Assembly: GCF_002224125.1 (NCBI RefSeq)
Contig: NZ_NCSM01000013.1
Location: forward strand, 1 to 64,000
Direction of reading: 5' to 3'
Source of the DNA: Streptomyces sp. NBS 14/10
GTDB lineage: Bacteria; Actinomycetota; Actinomycetes; Streptomycetales; Streptomycetaceae
DNA length: 64,000 nucleotides
Part shown: piece after piece, positions 2,483 through 15,106 of the stretch
Position numbering within the stretch: the first letter of the stretch is position 1
Layout: each line of letters begins with the position of its first letter
Program-made: the position numbers and the translations under genes
Notes under the pieces: generated by a model
The model's database searches: none
What the model was told of the DNA's origin: nothing
What the model saw: only the letters and a program-made list of their open reading frames with translations

Positions 2483-2923
2483 ATGGCAACTCCCAACCGC
2501 ACCACGGCCGCAGCCGACCACGCCGCCCGCCCGGACACCCGGCGGGCCTTCGACACGGTGAAGAGACTCGTCATGGTCTATGGCGCGTTCAGTGTCGCGG
2601 TCCTGGTCGTGGTCGTCGTCCGCTCGGTCATGGGCCGCGAGGTGACGTCGTTCATGTGGGGCCGCACCGGAGGAATGTTCGCGAGCGCCGTCGTGACGTA
2701 CTGGCTGACCGTCGTCGCCTCACGGGGCGCGCGCTGGGCCTATATACGGGTGCGCGTCATCGCCGTCGTCGTGCCGATCGCGATCGTCGCCATCGACTCC
2801 ATCCCCGGCGCGCTCCCGCTGTGGTTCGTCGTGCTGCAGATCGCGGGCGCGCTCGCCCTCGCCCCCACCGCGTTCATCGTCAGCCGGTCCGAACCGCGCG
2901 CCGCCTTCCGCAAGGCGCGCTGA
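2483..2923 (+). CDS. small integral membrane protein
   Basis: 146-residue protein with a hydrophilic N-terminus (about 1-27) and then three to four hydrophobic segments (about 30-46, 58-76, 87-102, 108-125). The start ATG at 2483 follows GAGGAAGCAGGAG. It is divergent from the histidine kinase/response regulator pair, a position often held by a gene controlled by that pair. No recognised domain; function unknown. Confidence 0.75.
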   Translation: MATPNRTTAAADHAARPDTRRAFDTVKRLVMVYGAFSVAVLVVVVVRSVMGREVTSFMWGRTGGMFASAVVTYWLTVVASRGARWAYIRVRVIAVVVPIAIVAIDSIPGALPLWFVVLQIAGALALAPTAFIVSRSEPRAAFRKAR

Positions 2924-2927
2924 CCCG

Positions 2928-3596
2928 TCAGCGGCCTGCGAGCAGGCCGTCCAGTTCGGCCGCGAAGAGCAGGGCGGGGTCGAAGCCCATCCCGCCGAAC
3001 TGGCCCGCGAGTTCCAGGGACAGGACGCCGTGCAGCCGGGTCCAGAAGATCAGTGCTTGATGGAGGACCGCCGACGGGGCGGGGTGGCCGCCCGCCCACT
3101 GCCGGTGGTCCTCGAGGTGCGCGTCGAATGGCGTCGCCGGGCCGTCCGGGGGCAGTGCGGTCCAGGCGTCGAGCATCGACGCCATGATCTCGACCGCGAT
3201 GGCGGTGGTGTCGTCGGGCGCGTGGTAGCCCGGGACGGGCGTGCCGTAGATGAGGAAGTACCGCTGGGGGTCCTCCAGGGCCCAGCCACGGATGGCGTGC
3301 GCCAGCGCGACCACGTGGGCGCCTGACTTCTCGGACGCCGCCTTCTCGGACGCCGCGCGGATGGCGTCGGCCAGGCTTCGGTACGCGTCCCTGATGAGCT
3401 CGGTGATCAGGTCGTCGCGGCTGGCGAAGTACCGGTAGAGCGCGGGTCCGCTCATGCCCATCTGCTTGGCGATCGCGTTGAGGGAGAGCGCGGACGCCCC
3501 CGCCGTGGCGATCTGCTCCCACGCGCGCTTCTTGACCTCCGCACGCACCTGGGCACGGTAGCGCTCGCGCGGGGTTGTGGTGCCCGTTTCCGCCAT
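2928..3596 (-). CDS. TetR/AcrR-family transcriptional regulator
   Basis: 222 residues from ATG 3596; an in-frame GTG at 3614 would add six. GGAAGGGCGG precedes the ATG and favours it. The N-terminal helix-turn-helix is visible as GASALSLNAIAKQMGMSGPALYRYF, followed by a helical ligand-binding domain of the WHG/TetR_C type rich in aromatic residues. It is divergent from the oxidoreductase gene, and a pair of 15-bp inverted half-sites (3643-3657, 3688-3702) lies between them. It probably represses both itself and the oxidoreductase operon; the ligand is unknown. Confidence 0.93.
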   Translation of the reverse strand: MAETGTTTPRERYRAQVRAEVKKRAWEQIATAGASALSLNAIAKQMGMSGPALYRYFASRDDLITELIRDAYRSLADAIRAASEKAASEKSGAHVVALAHAIRGWALEDPQRYFLIYGTPVPGYHAPDDTTAIAVEIMASMLDAWTALPPDGPATPFDAHLEDHRQWAGGHPAPSAVLHQALIFWTRLHGVLSLELAGQFGGMGFDPALLFAAELDGLLAGR

Positions 3597-9402: not shown

Positions 9403-10938
9403 CTATCCCAGCTGCTGTGCGAGGTCCAGGGCGGCGGCGACGCGGGCGGCGACGTCCTCCGCGTACACGGCGTCCCCACGATCGAAGGGGCGGCGGCCCG
9501 AGGCGCGCAGGAACGTGACCACCCCGAGGGTGCGGCCGCGGCTGCGGAGCGCCGTGCACAGGCCGTGGACCGTGCCGTCGGGCCACTTGCGGGCCGCCGC
9601 CCACCCGGTGGCGGCCGCCTCCTCCGCGCGGCTCGCGCTGACGCGCACCGACCCGCAGCGCTCGGCCGCCTGGATCGCCGGATGGCTCTCCGTATAGGCC
9701 AGCGGAATGCCTCCCGCGACGATCGCCGGGCAGGGCCCCGGGGCACCGCTCGGCGTCGCCGCCGCCCGCACCAGCCGGACCCGGTCCGAGCCGCCCCGGT
9801 CAGGGCCGGGGCCGCCGGGCCGGCCGCCCGGCGGGGCCTCCAGGACCAGGTCGATCAGGGCGTGGTCGGCGAAGCCCGCGAGCGCGAAGTCCAGGTGGAC
9901 GGTGGCCGCCTCGGCCGGGTCCTCGCATTCGGCCGCCGCGCGCGCCGCCCGGTGCAGCTGATTGCCGCGGAAGCGCAGCCGCGAGCCGTCCATCTCGTGG
10001 CGCTTGAGCTCCGTCACGTCCTGGAAGATCCACGCCACGCCTAGCGGCACCGGCTCCTCCGCCAGCGGCGAGGCCAGCCGCAGAAAGCCGCTGCGCCAGC
10101 AGCGCCGCGCGGCGGCGCCGTCACCGGCCCCGCCGCCCGCTCCGTCCTTGGCCGCGCCGCCCGCGCCGCTCCGTAAACCTCTGAAGCCCTCACCGGCTTC
10201 CCGCAGGCTCACCCACAGCTCCGTGGGCGCCGGGGGCGCGCCCTCCGCCAGGACGTGCTGGAGCGCGCTCTCCAACTCCTCGAGGCCCTGGTCGAGCAGT
10301 TCTCCCAGCGGGCGCCCCAGCGCCGCCGTACGGCCCGTGCGCAGCGCGCGCGCCGCGTTCTTGTTGACGATCGCGGGGCGCAGATCGGCGTCGACCAGGA
10401 CCACGTTCCACGAGGCGTCGTCGAGCAGGGCCTCGCTGAGCGCTATCGAACGCTCCAGGTCGATCTGCGTATGCACCTCGCTGAACGCGCAGTACACCCC
10501 GCCCGGCCGCCCGTCGGCCCGCGGCACCGCCGAGGACTGGGTGCGCACCAGGACCCGGCCGCCGTCCTTGGTCAGCAGCGCGAACTCGTGCACCTGGCGT
10601 CCCTTGGCGTCCATCGCGGCCATCAGCCGCGCCTCCACCTCGCGCGCGTCCGCCGCCCGCACCGCCCACCCCGCGAGCCCCTTGCGCCCGACGGCCTCCC
10701 GCGCCGACCAGCCGAGGATGCGCTCGGCCTCGCGGTTCCAGTGGGTGACGGTGCCCTCGGCGTCGAAGGCGCACAGGGCCGCGTCCATGCCGTCGAGCAG
10801 CGCGGCGAGCAGCCCCGAATCGTCCTCCGAGTCGGCCGCGGGCCCCGGCGTCCCGGCCTCGCCGGCTCGCGGCTGTGTCGGAGCGGATGGCACGGCACGA
10901 GCCGGCTGTGCGGGCTCGGAACGTCGCGAAGCGCTCAC
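9403..10938 (-). CDS. PAS/GAF-domain sensory protein
   Basis: About 511 residues from GTG 10938 (AGGGGG upstream); a longer frame to 10998 exists. After a disordered proline/alanine-rich N-terminus there is a PAS domain (DGMDAALCAFDAEGTVTHWNREAERILGW), a second PAS-like segment (DDASWNVVLVDADLRPAIVNKNAARAL), a third ending in GVAWIFQDVTELK, and a GAF-like C-terminal part (LCTALRSRGRTLGVVTFLR). There is no kinase, cyclase or PP2C phosphatase module after the sensor domains, although streptomycete relatives often carry one. Probably a signal-binding adaptor; ligand unknown. Confidence 0.85.
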   Translation of the reverse strand: MSASRRSEPAQPARAVPSAPTQPRAGEAGTPGPAADSEDDSGLLAALLDGMDAALCAFDAEGTVTHWNREAERILGWSAREAVGRKGLAGWAVRAADAREVEARLMAAMDAKGRQVHEFALLTKDGGRVLVRTQSSAVPRADGRPGGVYCAFSEVHTQIDLERSIALSEALLDDASWNVVLVDADLRPAIVNKNAARALRTGRTAALGRPLGELLDQGLEELESALQHVLAEGAPPAPTELWVSLREAGEGFRGLRSGAGGAAKDGAGGGAGDGAAARRCWRSGFLRLASPLAEEPVPLGVAWIFQDVTELKRHEMDGSRLRFRGNQLHRAARAAAECEDPAEAATVHLDFALAGFADHALIDLVLEAPPGGRPGGPGPDRGGSDRVRLVRAAATPSGAPGPCPAIVAGGIPLAYTESHPAIQAAERCGSVRVSASRAEEAAATGWAAARKWPDGTVHGLCTALRSRGRTLGVVTFLRASGRRPFDRGDAVYAEDVAARVAAALDLAQQLG

Positions 10939-11061
10939 CGGACACCCCCTGGTTGACCTGGCAGCCACGGCCGCGTGCGGTGGTGCACGCCGTGACATTC
11001 AACTCGAACGTGACACGCGCCACACCGGATTCCGCTAAATCGTTGCGTCCCGGAAATTCAC

Positions 11062-11090
11062 TTGTGGTGTGGCGGACCGGTTCTTAGGGT
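11062..11090 (+). promoter_or_regulatory. promoter of the micro-ORF transcription unit
   Basis: TTGTGG (11062-11067), a 17-nt spacer, then TAGGGT (11085-11090): a good vegetative-type promoter. A small inverted repeat, GTGTG-GAG-CACAC (11089-11101), sits across the expected transcription start and might be an operator or a 5'-terminal hairpin. Confidence 0.6.
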
Positions 11091-11123
11091 GTGGAGCACA
11101 CGAGAAGGGAGGTGGTTCGGCAG

Positions 11124-11162
11124 ATGTATCAAATCCGGACGCGTGAGGTGACTGCGGGCTAG
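11124..11162 (+). CDS. 12-residue micro-ORF (possible leader peptide or dual-function RNA)
   Basis: ATG at 11124 follows the strong ribosome binding site GGGAGGTGG and encodes MYQIRTREVTAG, then TAG. It lies about 27 nt downstream of the predicted transcription start and about 80 nt upstream of a three-way-junction hairpin with a T4 tract. The composition has no runs of one amino acid, so ordinary amino-acid attenuation is unlikely. No plus-strand gene follows; the next gene is pdxH on the other strand, converging. I do not recognise a family. Confidence 0.5.
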   Translation: MYQIRTREVTAG

Positions 11163-11242
11163 CAGTCCGTCGTCGCGCTCAGCGCATTCGCCGGACAGGC
11201 GCACGAGAGATGTGCGCGGCCGGCCAATCCCAAGCAGTCACC

Positions 11243-11325
11243 CGACCCGTGGGTCGCCGGTACGTCCGACCGGCCCCCTCGCGCCTCAGGGCGCAGGGGA
11301 GAGACCCACGGGTCGTCTGCGTTTT
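11243..11325 (+). terminator. three-way-junction RNA structure with T-tract
   Basis: A 13-bp outer stem (11243-11255 with 11303-11315) encloses two hairpins: GCCGGT/ACCGGC (11256-11274) and CCCCT..GCGCC-TCAG-GGCGC-AGGGG (11275-11299). Only three bases (11300-11302) are unpaired at the junction. GTTTTCG follows at about 11321. It can terminate the micro-ORF transcript and may be a stable small-RNA fold. It lies 68 bp beyond the pdxH stop, but there is no T-tract in the pdxH direction. Confidence 0.65.
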
Positions 11326-11392
11326 CGCCCCCCGTTTCTCCGCCTGCTTCTGCCACGTTCTGTCGCGCGACGGGCCCCGCCCCCACCGCCCG

Positions 11393-12103
11393 CTACGGGC
11401 TCAGGCGCTCGATCCGCCAGCCCTCGCCGCCCGGGCCCGGGACGTACCGCAGCCGGTCGTGCAGCCGGTTCTCCCGGCCCTGCCAGAACTCCACCGCGTC
11501 CGGCACCACCCGGAAGCCGCCCCACTCCGGCGGCACCGGCACCTGCTCCCCTGGCGGATAGCGGTCCGCCAGCTCGCCGTACGCCCGGTCCAGCTCCTCC
11601 CGCGAGCCCACCACCGAGGACTGCGCGCTCGCCCACGCCCCCAGCTGCGATCCGTGCGGCCGGGTCCTGAAGTACGCCGCCGTCTCGTCCCGGCCGGTCC
11701 GCCGCGCCGCGCCGGTGATGATGACCTGGCGGGCGATCGGGTGCCAGGGGAAGAGCAGCGAGACATACGGGTTCTCGGTGAGCTCACGGCCCTTGCGCGA
11801 GTTGTAGTTGGTGTAGAAGACGAATCCGCGCGTGTCGAAGCTCTTCATCAGCACCGTGCGGGAGCTGGGCCGCCCGGCGGCGTCCGCCGTCGAGACCACC
11901 ATGGCGTTGGGCTCGAACAGACCGCTCGCCACGGCCTGCTCGAACCACCGCGTGAACTGCTCGTACGGATCGGCCGCGAGCTCGCGCTCGGCGATCCCCT
12001 CCGCGCGGTAGTGCTCGCGCATGGCGGCCGGGTCGTAGGTGCGCGCGGCCGGACGCGCCGAGAATTGCGGGTCAACGTGAGGCACGCGCATATCTTGCAA
12101 CAT
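11393..12103 (-). CDS. pdxH: pyridoxamine 5'-phosphate oxidase
   Basis: 236-residue FMN enzyme that oxidises pyridoxamine/pyridoxine 5'-phosphate to pyridoxal 5'-phosphate. Family blocks are plain: [65 protein letters not shown] and the C-terminal [15 protein letters not shown] with the substrate-binding RLHDR. Possible starts are TTG 12106, ATG 12103 and ATG 12091; none has a strong ribosome binding site. It is divergent from the citrate synthase gene, with about 260 bp between. Confidence 0.96.
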
Positions 12104-12366
12104 CAACGCCGCGCCTCAAGTACTGCCCCGTACGGGCGAATCCCCTCCCCCTTCCGCTCGCCCGGTAACCCTTTCCGCGGGTGACGGGACATGTGCCGCT
12201 TCTCACGCTTCCCCGTGGGTACCTCAGAGACCAGACTGTGGCAGACCATCGCCCATCGCGCAGGCCGTACGGTCGCGTGCCCGGCGCGGCCGGATGACAC
12301 TCGTCCGCACGGGGCATCACCAGGGTGACCGGTACGGACCGCGAGCCGCGCACGAGGAGCCGCCTG

Positions 12367-13467
12367 ATGTCCGACTTCGTACCCGGACTCGAAGGAGTCA
12401 TCGCGTTCGAGACGGAGATCGCCGAACCCGACAGGGCTGGCGGCGCGCTCCGCTATCGAGGCGTGGACATCGAGGACCTGGTGGGCCATGTCTCCTTCGG
12501 GAACGTGTGGGGGCTGCTGGTCGACGGCGCGTTCAACCCCGGTCTGCCCGCGGCCGAGCCGTTCCCCATCCCGGTCCACTCCGGCGACATCCGCGTCGAT
12601 GTGCAGTCCGCGCTGGCCATGCTCGCGCCCGTCTGGGGCCTCAAACCGCTGCTGGACATCGACGAGGCGGAGGCCCGCGAGGACCTGGCGCGCGCGGCCG
12701 TGATGGCGCTGTCGTACGTCGCCCAGTCGGCCCGCGGCCAGGGCCTGCCGATGGTCCCGCAGCGGGAGATCGACAAGGCGGAGACCGTCGTGGAGCGCTT
12801 TATGCGGCGCTGGCGCGGCGAGCCCGACCCCAAGCACATCGCCGCCGTCGACGCGTACTGGACCTCGGCCGCCGAGCACGGCATGAACGCCTCGACCTTC
12901 ACCGCCCGCGTCATCGCCTCCACCGGCGCCGATGTCGCCGCCGCGCTCTCCGGGGCGGTCGGCGCCATGTCGGGGCCGCTGCACGGCGGCGCGCCCTCCC
13001 GTGTGCTGCACATGATCGAGGAGATCGAGCGCACCGGCGACGCCACCGCGTACGTCAAGCAGGCCCTGGACCGCGGCGAGCGGCTGATGGGCTTCGGGCA
13101 CCGCGTCTACCGCGCCGAGGACCCGCGCGCCCGTGTGCTGCGGCGCACCGCCCGGGACCTGGGCGCGCCGCGCTTCGAGGTCGCCGAGGCACTGGAGCGG
13201 GCGGCCCTGGACGAGCTGCACAACCGGCGGCCGGACCGGGTGCTGGCCACCAACGTCGAGTTCTGGGCGGCCATCGTCCTGGACTTCGCGGAGGTCCCGG
13301 CGCACATGTTCACCTCCATGTTCACCTGTGCCCGCACCGCCGGGTGGAGCGCGCACATCCTGGAGCAGAAGCGCACCGGCCGCCTCGTACGCCCCTCCGC
13401 CCGCTACACCGGCCCCGGCCCGCGCAGCCCGCACGACATCGAGGGCTTCGGGGACACCACCCGCTAG
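12367..13467 (+). CDS. citrate synthase (short actinobacterial type, CitA2-like)
   Basis: 366-residue citrate synthase-fold enzyme condensing acetyl-CoA (or a close acyl-CoA) with oxaloacetate. GAGGAG precedes ATG 12367. Catalytic blocks are present: GPLHGGAPSRV near 202, FGHRVYRAEDPRA near 243 with the second histidine, and EFWAAIVLDFAEVP near 300-310 with the aspartate. The short form is often called citrate synthase 2; a methylcitrate synthase cannot be excluded. The stop codon shares CTAG with the stop of the convergent TetR gene. Confidence 0.93.
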   Translation: MSDFVPGLEGVIAFETEIAEPDRAGGALRYRGVDIEDLVGHVSFGNVWGLLVDGAFNPGLPAAEPFPIPVHSGDIRVDVQSALAMLAPVWGLKPLLDIDEAEAREDLARAAVMALSYVAQSARGQGLPMVPQREIDKAETVVERFMRRWRGEPDPKHIAAVDAYWTSAAEHGMNASTFTARVIASTGADVAAALSGAVGAMSGPLHGGAPSRVLHMIEEIERTGDATAYVKQALDRGERLMGFGHRVYRAEDPRARVLRRTARDLGAPRFEVAEALERAALDELHNRRPDRVLATNVEFWAAIVLDFAEVPAHMFTSMFTCARTAGWSAHILEQKRTGRLVRPSARYTGPGPRSPHDIEGFGDTTR

Positions 13468-14144
13468 CGCGGAGCGCGCAGCGCGTCGTCGAGGATCCGC
13501 GCCCACTGCGCCACCACCCGGCCGCGGCGGGCGCGGTCGTCGGTGAGGATGTTGGCGAGCCCGAGGCCGCGGGCCATGTCCAGGAAGCCCTGAACGGACT
13601 CCCGTACGCCCGGCACGCTCTCGTCGGCGCCCAGCAGCTCCACCGCCATCCGGTGGGTCTCCCGGCCGATCCGCACCTCCAGGGCGGCCACGCGCGCGCC
13701 GAGCTGTTCCTCGTACGAGGCCACCACCCACAGCTGGAGCGCGGCCCGGAACAGCGGGCCGGTGTACAGATCGACCAGGACCTCGACCACATCCGCGACC
13801 CGGGCCGCCTGGCCCCCGGCCGCCCCGCCGCGCTCCTCCGCCCGTTCGCGCTCCCGCTCGCGTGCGTGCAGGGCGCGCAGGGCGGCCGAGCGCTCGGTGG
13901 CGACGTGCTCCACCGCGGCCGTGAACAGGTCCTCGCGGGTCGGGAAGTGGTGCTGGGCCGCGCCCCGCGACACCCCGGCCCGCTCGGCCACCACCGCCAC
14001 CGTGGACCGGGCCCAGCCGTACTCGGCCAGGCAGGCCACGGCGGCCTCCAGCAGCCGCCGGCGGGTGGCGCGGCTGCGGTCCTGCTTGGGGTCGCGCAGC
14101 GCGGTACGCGGCGGGGTGCGCGGCGGAGTACGGGCCGGGGTCAC
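13464..14144 (-). CDS. TetR-family regulator of the acyl-CoA catabolic operon
   Basis: 226 residues from GTG 14144. The first DNA-binding domain helix region is RSRATRRRLLEAAVACLAEYG and the recognition helix is GVSRGAAQHHF. GTG overlaps the TGA of the enoyl-CoA hydratase gene, so this is the last, translationally coupled gene of the operon that begins near 24310. By analogy with AtuR, LiuR or KstR2-type repressors it probably senses an acyl-CoA and represses the operon. The palindrome at 24384-24395 is its best candidate site. Confidence 0.93.
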   Translation of the reverse strand: MTPARTPPRTPPRTALRDPKQDRSRATRRRLLEAAVACLAEYGWARSTVAVVAERAGVSRGAAQHHFPTREDLFTAAVEHVATERSAALRALHARERERERAEERGGAAGGQAARVADVVEVLVDLYTGPLFRAALQLWVVASYEEQLGARVAALEVRIGRETHRMAVELLGADESVPGVRESVQGFLDMARGLGLANILTDDRARRGRVVAQWARILDDALRAPR

Positions 14145-15106
14145 CGCGCCTCCCCGCCGCCCGGCGCGCCTTGCCCGAGCGCGCCTTGCCCGGGCGCGCC
14201 TTGCCCGGGCGCGCCTTGCCCGGGCGCGCCTTGCCCGGGCGCGCCTTGCCTCGCTTGCCTCGCCGGGTCACCCGCCGCCAGTTCTTTTCCTGCCGGGTCG
14301 CCCGCCGCTGGTTCTTTTCCCGCCGTCTCTTCCCCCGCCAGGTCCGACACCCACGCCGGATCCCGTCGCTCCAGGAAGGCCGTCATGCCCTCGCGGGCCT
14401 CGGCCGAGGCGAACAGCGCCGCGGACCGCTCCGCCAGCCGGTCCGTCTCCCGGGCGAAACCCGCCAGCACCTCCGCCGTGACCAGCCGCTTGGACTCGGC
14501 GAGCCCCTGCGGGGAGCCGCGCCGCAGCCCGTCGAGGACCGGCGCCAGCAGCTCGTCCACGTCCGCCGCCCCGTCCCCCAGCGTGAGCAGGCCGATCCGC
14601 GCCGCCTCGGCCGCGTCGAACCGCTCCCCCGTCAGGTAGTAGCGGGCCGCCGCGCGCGGGTCCAGCCGGGGCAGCAGCGGTATGGAGATCATCGCGGGCG
14701 CGAGCCCCAGCCGGGCCTCGGTGAAGGCGAAACTCGCGCCCCCGCCCGCCGCCGCGATGTCGCACGCGCCCAGCAGCCCCAGACCGCCCGCCCTGACATG
14801 CCCGGTCACCCGGGCCACCACCGGCTTCGGCAGCTCCACGATCGACCGCAACAGCGCGACCAGGTTCAGCGCCGCCGACCGCGTGGGCGGCTCGCTCAGA
14901 TCCGCGCCCGCGCAGAACGTGGTGCCGGTATGGGTCAGCAGCACCGCCCGCGTGCCGCCGTCACGCCCGGCTGCCGCCAGCGCCTCGCTCAGCTCGGCGA
15001 CCAGCCGCGTGGAGAGCGCGTTGCGGTTGCGCGGCGAGTCGAGGGTCAGCGTGGTGACGCCGCGCGCGTACGCGTGCCGTACGAGAGGTGGTGGCGCATC
15101 CGTCAT
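14141..15106 (-). CDS. enoyl-CoA hydratase/isomerase with repetitive C-terminal tail
   Basis: 321 residues, about 60 longer than the usual crotonase. The core (1-255) has LDSPRNRNALSTRL at the N-terminus, TTFCAGADLSEP and VTGHVRAGGLGLLGACDIAAAG for the oxyanion hole, and SFAFTEARLGLAP for the catalytic glutamate region. The tail has three GKE/GKEL-AAGDPA-type repeats, then six QGAPG or near copies encoded by a 15-bp tandem repeat. Start overlaps the AMP-ligase stop by 4 nt; the stop overlaps the TetR start. Likely hydrates the unsaturated acyl-CoA made in this pathway. Confidence 0.92.
   Translation of the reverse strand: MTDAPPPLVRHAYARGVTTLTLDSPRNRNALSTRLVAELSEALAAAGRDGGTRAVLLTHTGTTFCAGADLSEPPTRSAALNLVALLRSIVELPKPVVARVTGHVRAGGLGLLGACDIAAAGGGASFAFTEARLGLAPAMISIPLLPRLDPRAAARYYLTGERFDAAEAARIGLLTLGDGAADVDELLAPVLDGLRRGSPQGLAESKRLVTAEVLAGFARETDRLAERSAALFASAEAREGMTAFLERRDPAWVSDLAGEETAGKEPAAGDPAGKELAAGDPARQARQGAPGQGAPGQGAPGQGAPGQGALGQGAPGGGEAR
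14163..14250. repeat. 15-bp coding tandem repeat
   Basis: Six near-identical copies of GCGCCTTGCCCGGGC (plus-strand reading) encode a collagen-like GAPGQ series at the end of the enoyl-CoA hydratase, stopping about 20 bp before its stop codon. Confidence 0.9.

Follow-up and report, generated by a model that had tools for sequence, protein, structure and literature searches.

The Ms_IGR-5 locus and its transcription unit

A cmscan search revealed, within the window (the whole 64,000-nt stretch of Streptomyces sp. NBS 14/10 DNA analyzed here), a match to Rfam family RF02471, Ms_IGR-5, at positions 11098 to 11321 of the plus strand, with a score of 90.7 bits (cut-off, 45; E value, 7.2e-21) and all 184 model positions covered. 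This RNA, which we suspect is the one named scr4389 in S. coelicolor, has a single copy in the NBS 14/10 genome, and RF02471 was the sole match when positions 10500 to 12000 were searched against Rfam at E values up to 1, with no hit to a 6C or 6S-type RNA model. The RNA is predicted to start at 11098 (A) and, judging from a T tract at 11322 to 11325, to end at 11325 on the plus strand. Upstream, on the same strand, lie a -35 element, TTGTGG (11062 to 11067), and, after a 17-nt spacer, a -10 element of the TANNNT type, TAGGGT (11085 to 11090). No plus-strand gene lies directly downstream, as pdxH is on the minus strand; this was correctly noted in the original prediction, which also named the promoter, a near-consensus ribosome binding site, a 12-codon ORF, and a three-way junction with a T4 tract, all of which are present. 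The evidence supports its reading of the unit as a self-standing small RNA, of some 225 nt, that carries a translated micro-ORF, and the condition set for dismissing that reading, a lack of conserved ORF or stems among relatives, does not hold, as both are conserved in several classes of the phylum. The RNA is not undescribed, as had been claimed, since it is RF02471 and its transcription has been published. As a whole, the original interpretation is thus partly supported.

An E. coli-type promoter and terminator scan of positions 10000 to 12500 called no promoter and a single terminator-like site elsewhere (10346 to 10358); we attribute the lack of a call at Ms_IGR-5 to the E. coli type of the scan's consensus, and position-specific counting of TANNNT was used in its place. 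TANNNT occurs at -18 to -5 in 208 of 241 homologues, mostly at -13/-12, against a background at -110 to -31 that averages 0.21 sequences per offset. Among the 197 homologues with a -10 element starting at -14 to -12, TTG is found 16 to 18 nt 5' of TANNNT in 152, compared with 4 and 5 at two control distances.

In the parts of the published record available to us, Ms_IGR-5 is transcribed in S. lividans TK24 (PMC8079986, Table 2), an S. avermitilis sRNA unit is matched to it (PMC8780764), and the M. smegmatis transcript ncMSMEG15794c, described as a small non-coding RNA, overlaps IGR-5 (PMC10454040), which we equate with the Rfam RNA by name. Ribosome profiling reads on Ms_IGR-5 have been reported in M. 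abscessus and M. smegmatis and were left ambiguous by the authors, as copurified RNPs can yield reads on non-coding RNAs (PMC4974804). In S. coelicolor, ribosomes were reported on 31 of 230 sRNAs by ribosome profiling (GSE69350; PMC4895711). Within the sections of the literature that our search reached, we found no description of an ORF in this RNA and no function for it. Rfam and the cmscan output label RF02471 only as an sRNA.

At an E value of 0.001, RF02471 matches were obtained in 60 of 61 genus genomes, in 192 of 296 genomes drawn from the class, and in 57 of 296 drawn from the phylum; 26 of the 57 phylum matches exceed the curated cut-off. Our own 5'-domain model found a match in 177 of 396 phylum genomes, in a different and more complete draw. 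These draws, and the class survey of 197 genomes described below, share some genomes. On these counts, the Rfam model looks too narrow and probably misses lineages. Carriers among the matches listed include Mycobacterium, Nocardiopsis, Amycolatopsis, Cellulomonas, Acidimicrobiia, and Solirubrobacterales. Four families of the class (f8, f72, f91, and f92), some with small genomes, had no match in their listed members, which suggests lineage-specific loss; stricter filters may also miss weak copies. Two contigs labelled as Acidobacteria (L149 and L204) carry a genuine-looking Ms_IGR-5 5' domain and are probably misbinned actinobacterial DNA.

The homologue set was built from 142 loci and at least 120 named loci, from which two chance hits (Myxococcota L170 and Variovorax L175) were dropped before counting, leaving 241 unique sequences; five pattern hits on viral contigs were also judged by eye to be chance. 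The named loci were fetched with a pattern requiring AGGAGGTGGTCC, GGAC, and GAGGTG; of the 142 others, 136 were anchored with a closely related expression and six by hand or with a looser one. Conservation of these three motifs is therefore partly by construction; the start, stop, frame, and P1a pairing examined below were not part of the retrieval patterns. Forty held-out loci were hand-picked among the listed matches of the 5'-domain model, mostly from families that, to our knowledge, had not contributed to the model (L336, whose family had been sampled, is an exception), and all 40 are reported. For structural comparison, alignment A1 holds 59 class sequences of less than 0.82 similarity chosen out of the 142, and alignment A2 holds 51 outgroup sequences. 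L102 and L105 were excluded from A2, as were 7 of the 31 candidates with names, namely, L149, L252, and five class members resembling Nonomuraea.

A conserved, probably translated micro-ORF behind a complete anti-16S segment

The micro-ORF MYQIRTREVTAG runs for 12 codons from ATG to TAG at 11124 to 11162 (plus strand), and homologue comparison indicates that its boundaries are conserved. A stop codon lies exactly 5 codons past the GAG of GAGGTG in 239 of 241 sequences (TAG, 193; TGA, 32; TAA, 14), and TGG was never observed at this position, against 25.8 expected if the two columns were independent. In the two exceptions, L102 and L105, an ORF of ten codons is retained in a different frame. 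The ORF frame is open in all 239, and the other two frames contain a stop in 169 and 221 of them. A short ORF beginning with ATG, GTG, or TTG at Shine-Dalgarno distance is present in 214 of 241 homologues versus 9.4% under a shuffle of the variable loop, and when CTG, ATT, and ATC are also allowed it is present in 239 versus 17.8%. Among the held-out loci, the corresponding figures are 37 of 40 (11.2% under the null) and 40 of 40 (17.9%), and in 10 of the 40 the ORF ends in another frame relative to GAGGTG; the loop shuffle is the fair test for these loci because model R1 contains the usual stop columns. Start codons are TTG in 97 of the 241, ATG in 89, GTG in 26, CTG in 17, ATC in 6, and ATT and ACG in 2 each, with another frame used in the remaining two, and all but one of the ORFs read are 10 to 15 codons long. 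It is thus very improbable that Ms_IGR-5 is an ordinary, untranslated trans-acting sRNA in which the ORF is incidental: this would agree with its listing in Rfam and, in the portion of that paper available, with its description in M. smegmatis as a small non-coding RNA (PMC10454040), but it leaves the excess of ORFs over both nulls and the missing TGG unaccounted for.

In front of the ORF, an extended Shine-Dalgarno segment (11103 to 11118, plus strand) is complementary, with G-U pairs allowed, to the entire 16-nt 3' tail of 16S rRNA. The tail, GGAUCACCUCCUUUCU, was found in 10 of the 12 genomes searched and was absent from the NBS 14/10 draft assembly when sought there. Its full complement, again with G-U allowed, has one match in the 12.1-Mb genome, and this match is at Ms_IGR-5. 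All 16 positions can pair in 216 of the 241 homologues, fifteen in 22, and twelve in 3, and all 16 can pair in 34 of the 40 held-out loci. In a survey of 197 genomes of the class, many of the matches listed were rRNA genes in reverse orientation; inspection by eye placed the majority of the other listed matches on Ms_IGR-5, although unrelated sites also occur.

Conservation of the reading frame does not extend to the peptide. Across the 171 twelve-codon members, pN/pS is 1.02 for codons 2 to 4, 0.36 for codons 5 to 7, and 0.95 for codons 8 to 12; codons 8 and 9 are invariant, where the anchor expression itself demands GAGGTG. We read the low value in codons 5 to 7 as a product of RNA pairing because the bases there change together with their partners in helices P6 and P1a (see below), although a peptide constraint could give the same value. 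Tallies of amino acids across the 171 ORFs showed no run of codons for a regulating amino acid. Because the peptide drifts neutrally and ten held-out members use another frame, we conclude that translation itself seems to be selected and the peptide not.

This bears on the earlier suggestion of a dual-function RNA whose peptide is active in its own right. SgrS/SgrT and RNAIII/hld are dual-function sRNAs with a functional peptide, and they share with Ms_IGR-5 a short ORF within a regulatory RNA; in Ms_IGR-5, the peptide sequence drifts instead. The conserved start, stop, and length, the low pN/pS in codons 5 to 7, and, from the part of the source available, the ribosome reads in two mycobacteria (PMC4974804) are all consistent with an active peptide. 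With pN/pS near 1 in codons 2 to 4 and 8 to 12, codons 5 to 7 following their RNA pairing partners, and another frame in use in some lineages, however, we consider an active peptide improbable, and the suggestion is not supported.

Base pairing within the ORF

The RNA of the window folds at a z score of -5.24. In RNA numbering, in which window position equals 11097 + n, four features of the plus strand involve the ORF. Helix P1a pairs the 5' end (11099 to 11102; RNA 2 to 5) with 11142 to 11145 (RNA 45 to 48) inside the ORF. P6 is a pseudoknot between GGACG in the ORF (11137 to 11141; RNA 40 to 44) and CGTCC in the apical loop of hairpin P5 (11263 to 11267; RNA 166 to 170). P2 pairs ORF codons 8 to 11 (11147 to 11155; RNA 50 to 58) with GCAGTCACC (11234 to 11242; RNA 137 to 145), as indicated by RNAalifold and by pairing counts. 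P3, taken from a column-pair scan, joins 11156 to 11163, which includes the stop codon, to 11219 to 11225; its register is inferred except for the pair 11156-11225. The stretch that had been taken for an 80-nt spacer is structured: it contains a long hairpin, closed by a strand that is paired with the last part of the ORF. Farther downstream, also on the plus strand, P4 (11243 to 11255 with 11303 to 11315) is the 13-bp stem that closes the three-way junction, and 12 of its 13 pairs have changed in both strands; within it lie hairpin P5 (11256 to 11274; 74.8% of cells paired), which carries the P6 loop, and, from the fold, a variable second hairpin (11275 to 11299) and an unpaired AGA (11300 to 11302).

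The comparative evidence differs among helices, and the shuffles and permutations used throughout ignore the relatedness of the sequences. P1a, scored in 86 sequences, is paired in 97.3% of cells versus 69.7% when shuffled and at most 56.8% when slid, and 78 of its cells are changed on both sides versus 19.7; at the fixed offset it is imperfect in 47 of 241. RNAalifold proposed P2 unprompted and did not propose P1a. Jointly, P1a, P1b, P2, P4, and P5 are 94.1% paired, compared with 85.6% after shuffling and no more than 39.0% after sliding. When all columns of A1 were scanned against one another, P3 pair 59-128 ranks second of all column pairs and P6 pair 44-166 third (z score of 4.3), behind one P4 pair and this first P3 pair, with unrelated pairs reaching at most 3.8. 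In the outgroup scan, the two P1a pairs come top (6.8 and 6.7); the highest-scoring P6 pair has a z score of 2.6, compared with up to 4.8 for unrelated pairs.

P6, counted as GGACn with nGUCC, is 94.6% paired, compared with 88.4% after shuffling and no more than 48.5% after sliding; two of its five pairs show double changes, and the other three vary little. Pair 44-166 in A1 is GC in 25 sequences, TA in 10, AT in 5, TG in 2, and GT in 1 (43 of 59, versus 26.7 expected). The mean Watson-Crick run across P6 is 5.02 versus 4.57 in the class alignment and 5.45 versus 4.90 in 49 of the 51 outgroup sequences, each above all 2000 permutations. By eye, P6 looks absent in L102 and L105.

Single-sequence folding gave the test pair of each helix a probability above 0.5 in 58 of 59 sequences for P4, in 40 for P2, and in 6 for P1a, and forcing P1a and P2 together in the window costs 5.8 kcal/mol relative to the minimum free energy fold, with P6 not counted. 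Two other helices were considered. P1b (18-21/40-43), a first guess that was set aside, shows no covariation, and its GGUCC is better explained by pairing with 16S rRNA. The 5' helix drawn by Rfam (RNA 14-19/54-59) is 90.1% pairable, the same in all shuffles, and shows no both-side change or covariation (pairing of 0.887 observed versus 0.888 expected). In the Rfam structure, neither the 5' end nor the strand GCAGUCACC is paired, and P1a, P2, and P6 are absent. Comparison of the aligned lineages thus shows a predicted structure in which codons 5 to the stop are base-paired (P6, P1a, and P2/P3) and the Shine-Dalgarno segment and start codon are left in a loop closed by P1a, and in many lineages P6 joins the ORF to the loop of the terminator hairpin.

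The main rival to the reading developed below is a decoy or storage RNA, whose 16-nt pairing with 16S rRNA titrates or parks 30S subunits; weak starts and a pseudoknot just past the start would slow initiation, and a short, stopped ORF would make accidental initiation harmless. The full-length anti-Shine-Dalgarno complementarity, with its one match in the genome, would fit such an RNA, as would start codons that are mostly not ATG and the placement of the start 21 nt before GAG in 171 of 241 homologues, so that P6 begins 13 nt downstream of the first nucleotide of the start codon. This explains part of the data equally well; a pure decoy needs no start codon, however, and in-frame starts are strongly kept, so we regard it as unlikely, if still a serious contender.

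Genomic context and a possible translation-gated switch

The flanks of the 241 loci, which in many cases extend for only 1.5 kb per side, were searched for five proteins of the window (pdxH, citrate synthase, PAS, SIS, and DtxR), with at least one hit in 57. The position between the PAS/GAF gene and pdxH given in the original prediction is true of this genome and is not general among relatives: pdxH and citrate synthase flank Ms_IGR-5 in part of its own genus and in some other lineages, and, among the 20 loci and 20 proteins inspected, neighbours elsewhere include aminotransferases, gyrase A, DNA ligase, acyl-CoA dehydrogenase, and a subtilase, encoded on one strand or the other. Because the neighbouring genes are not conserved, Ms_IGR-5 is, on this comparison, a free-standing gene and no leader. 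Three observations were made in passing: a tRNA gene closely follows the homologue in L105 on the same strand (2887 to 2959, minus strand), a sub-threshold Scr5676 match (30.9 bits; cut-off, 56) lies directly beside the homologue in L101 (2912 to 3024, minus strand), and an enoyl-CoA hydratase-like ORF (by eye) at window positions 14141 to 15106 (minus strand) has a repeat tail, GQGAPGQGA...

In leader-peptide attenuators of the trp type, translation of a short ORF competes with the formation of RNA helices, and a terminator-like stem lies at the end. Ms_IGR-5 has a similar anatomy, in that the ribosome of its short ORF would compete with helices formed with downstream strands ahead of a terminator-like stem; unlike attenuators, it is without a downstream gene in cis and without a regulatory codon run. 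That it is nevertheless a cis-acting leader or attenuator of a neighbouring gene is extremely improbable, as the next gene here is on the opposite strand and, among the 20 inspected loci and 20 proteins, neighbours and their strands vary, with some on the same strand. Attenuator-type leaders of ilv, leu, trp, and aro are described in C. glutamicum in the part of the source available (PMC4046766).

Our preferred reading, to which we give about an even chance of being right, is that Ms_IGR-5 is a translation-gated RNA switch, in which the act of translation sets the state of the RNA. A 30S subunit would dock on the long Shine-Dalgarno segment in the loop, and the initiating and then elongating ribosome would have to unzip P6, P1a, and P2; without initiation or elongation, the RNA would close around its own ORF. 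Passage of the ribosome would decide whether the 5' end and the strand AATNCCNNGCAGYCACC are sequestered or accessible, and this state may in turn set RNA stability or pairing with a target. As no neighbouring gene is conserved, we propose that the RNA would act in trans. More tentatively, and with somewhat more doubt than confidence, we suggest that translation of the micro-ORF may serve no purpose beyond the act itself and that the RNA may sense, in trans, the state of ribosomes or of initiation, through competition between a 30S subunit bound by its complete 16S tail and the pseudoknot that links the ORF to the terminator loop.

We know of no regulatory RNA of such design. Like tmRNA, Ms_IGR-5 is free-standing and has a very short ORF that would engage ribosomes, but it differs in having no tRNA-like part (ARAGORN found no genes in 10900 to 11500) and in initiation led by a Shine-Dalgarno segment. 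Rare starts of the infC type are regulatory start codons of a protein gene; AUU, AUC, and CUG are shared with Ms_IGR-5, where they are in the minority and belong to a very short ORF in an sRNA.

The RNA family itself was already known; new here are the conservation of the ORF, the neutral peptide, the full match to the 16S tail, the base pairing of the ORF, and the free-standing status. A family listed as "non-coding" thereby gains testable parts, namely, start and stop codons, a segment able to pair with 16S rRNA, and helices to be opened by a ribosome, and the ribosome reads reported earlier on Ms_IGR-5 gain a possible reason. A conserved short ORF need not imply a conserved peptide. The family is kept in nearly all sampled genomes of the genus and, with both ORF and stems, in several classes of a phylum that produces many antibiotics.
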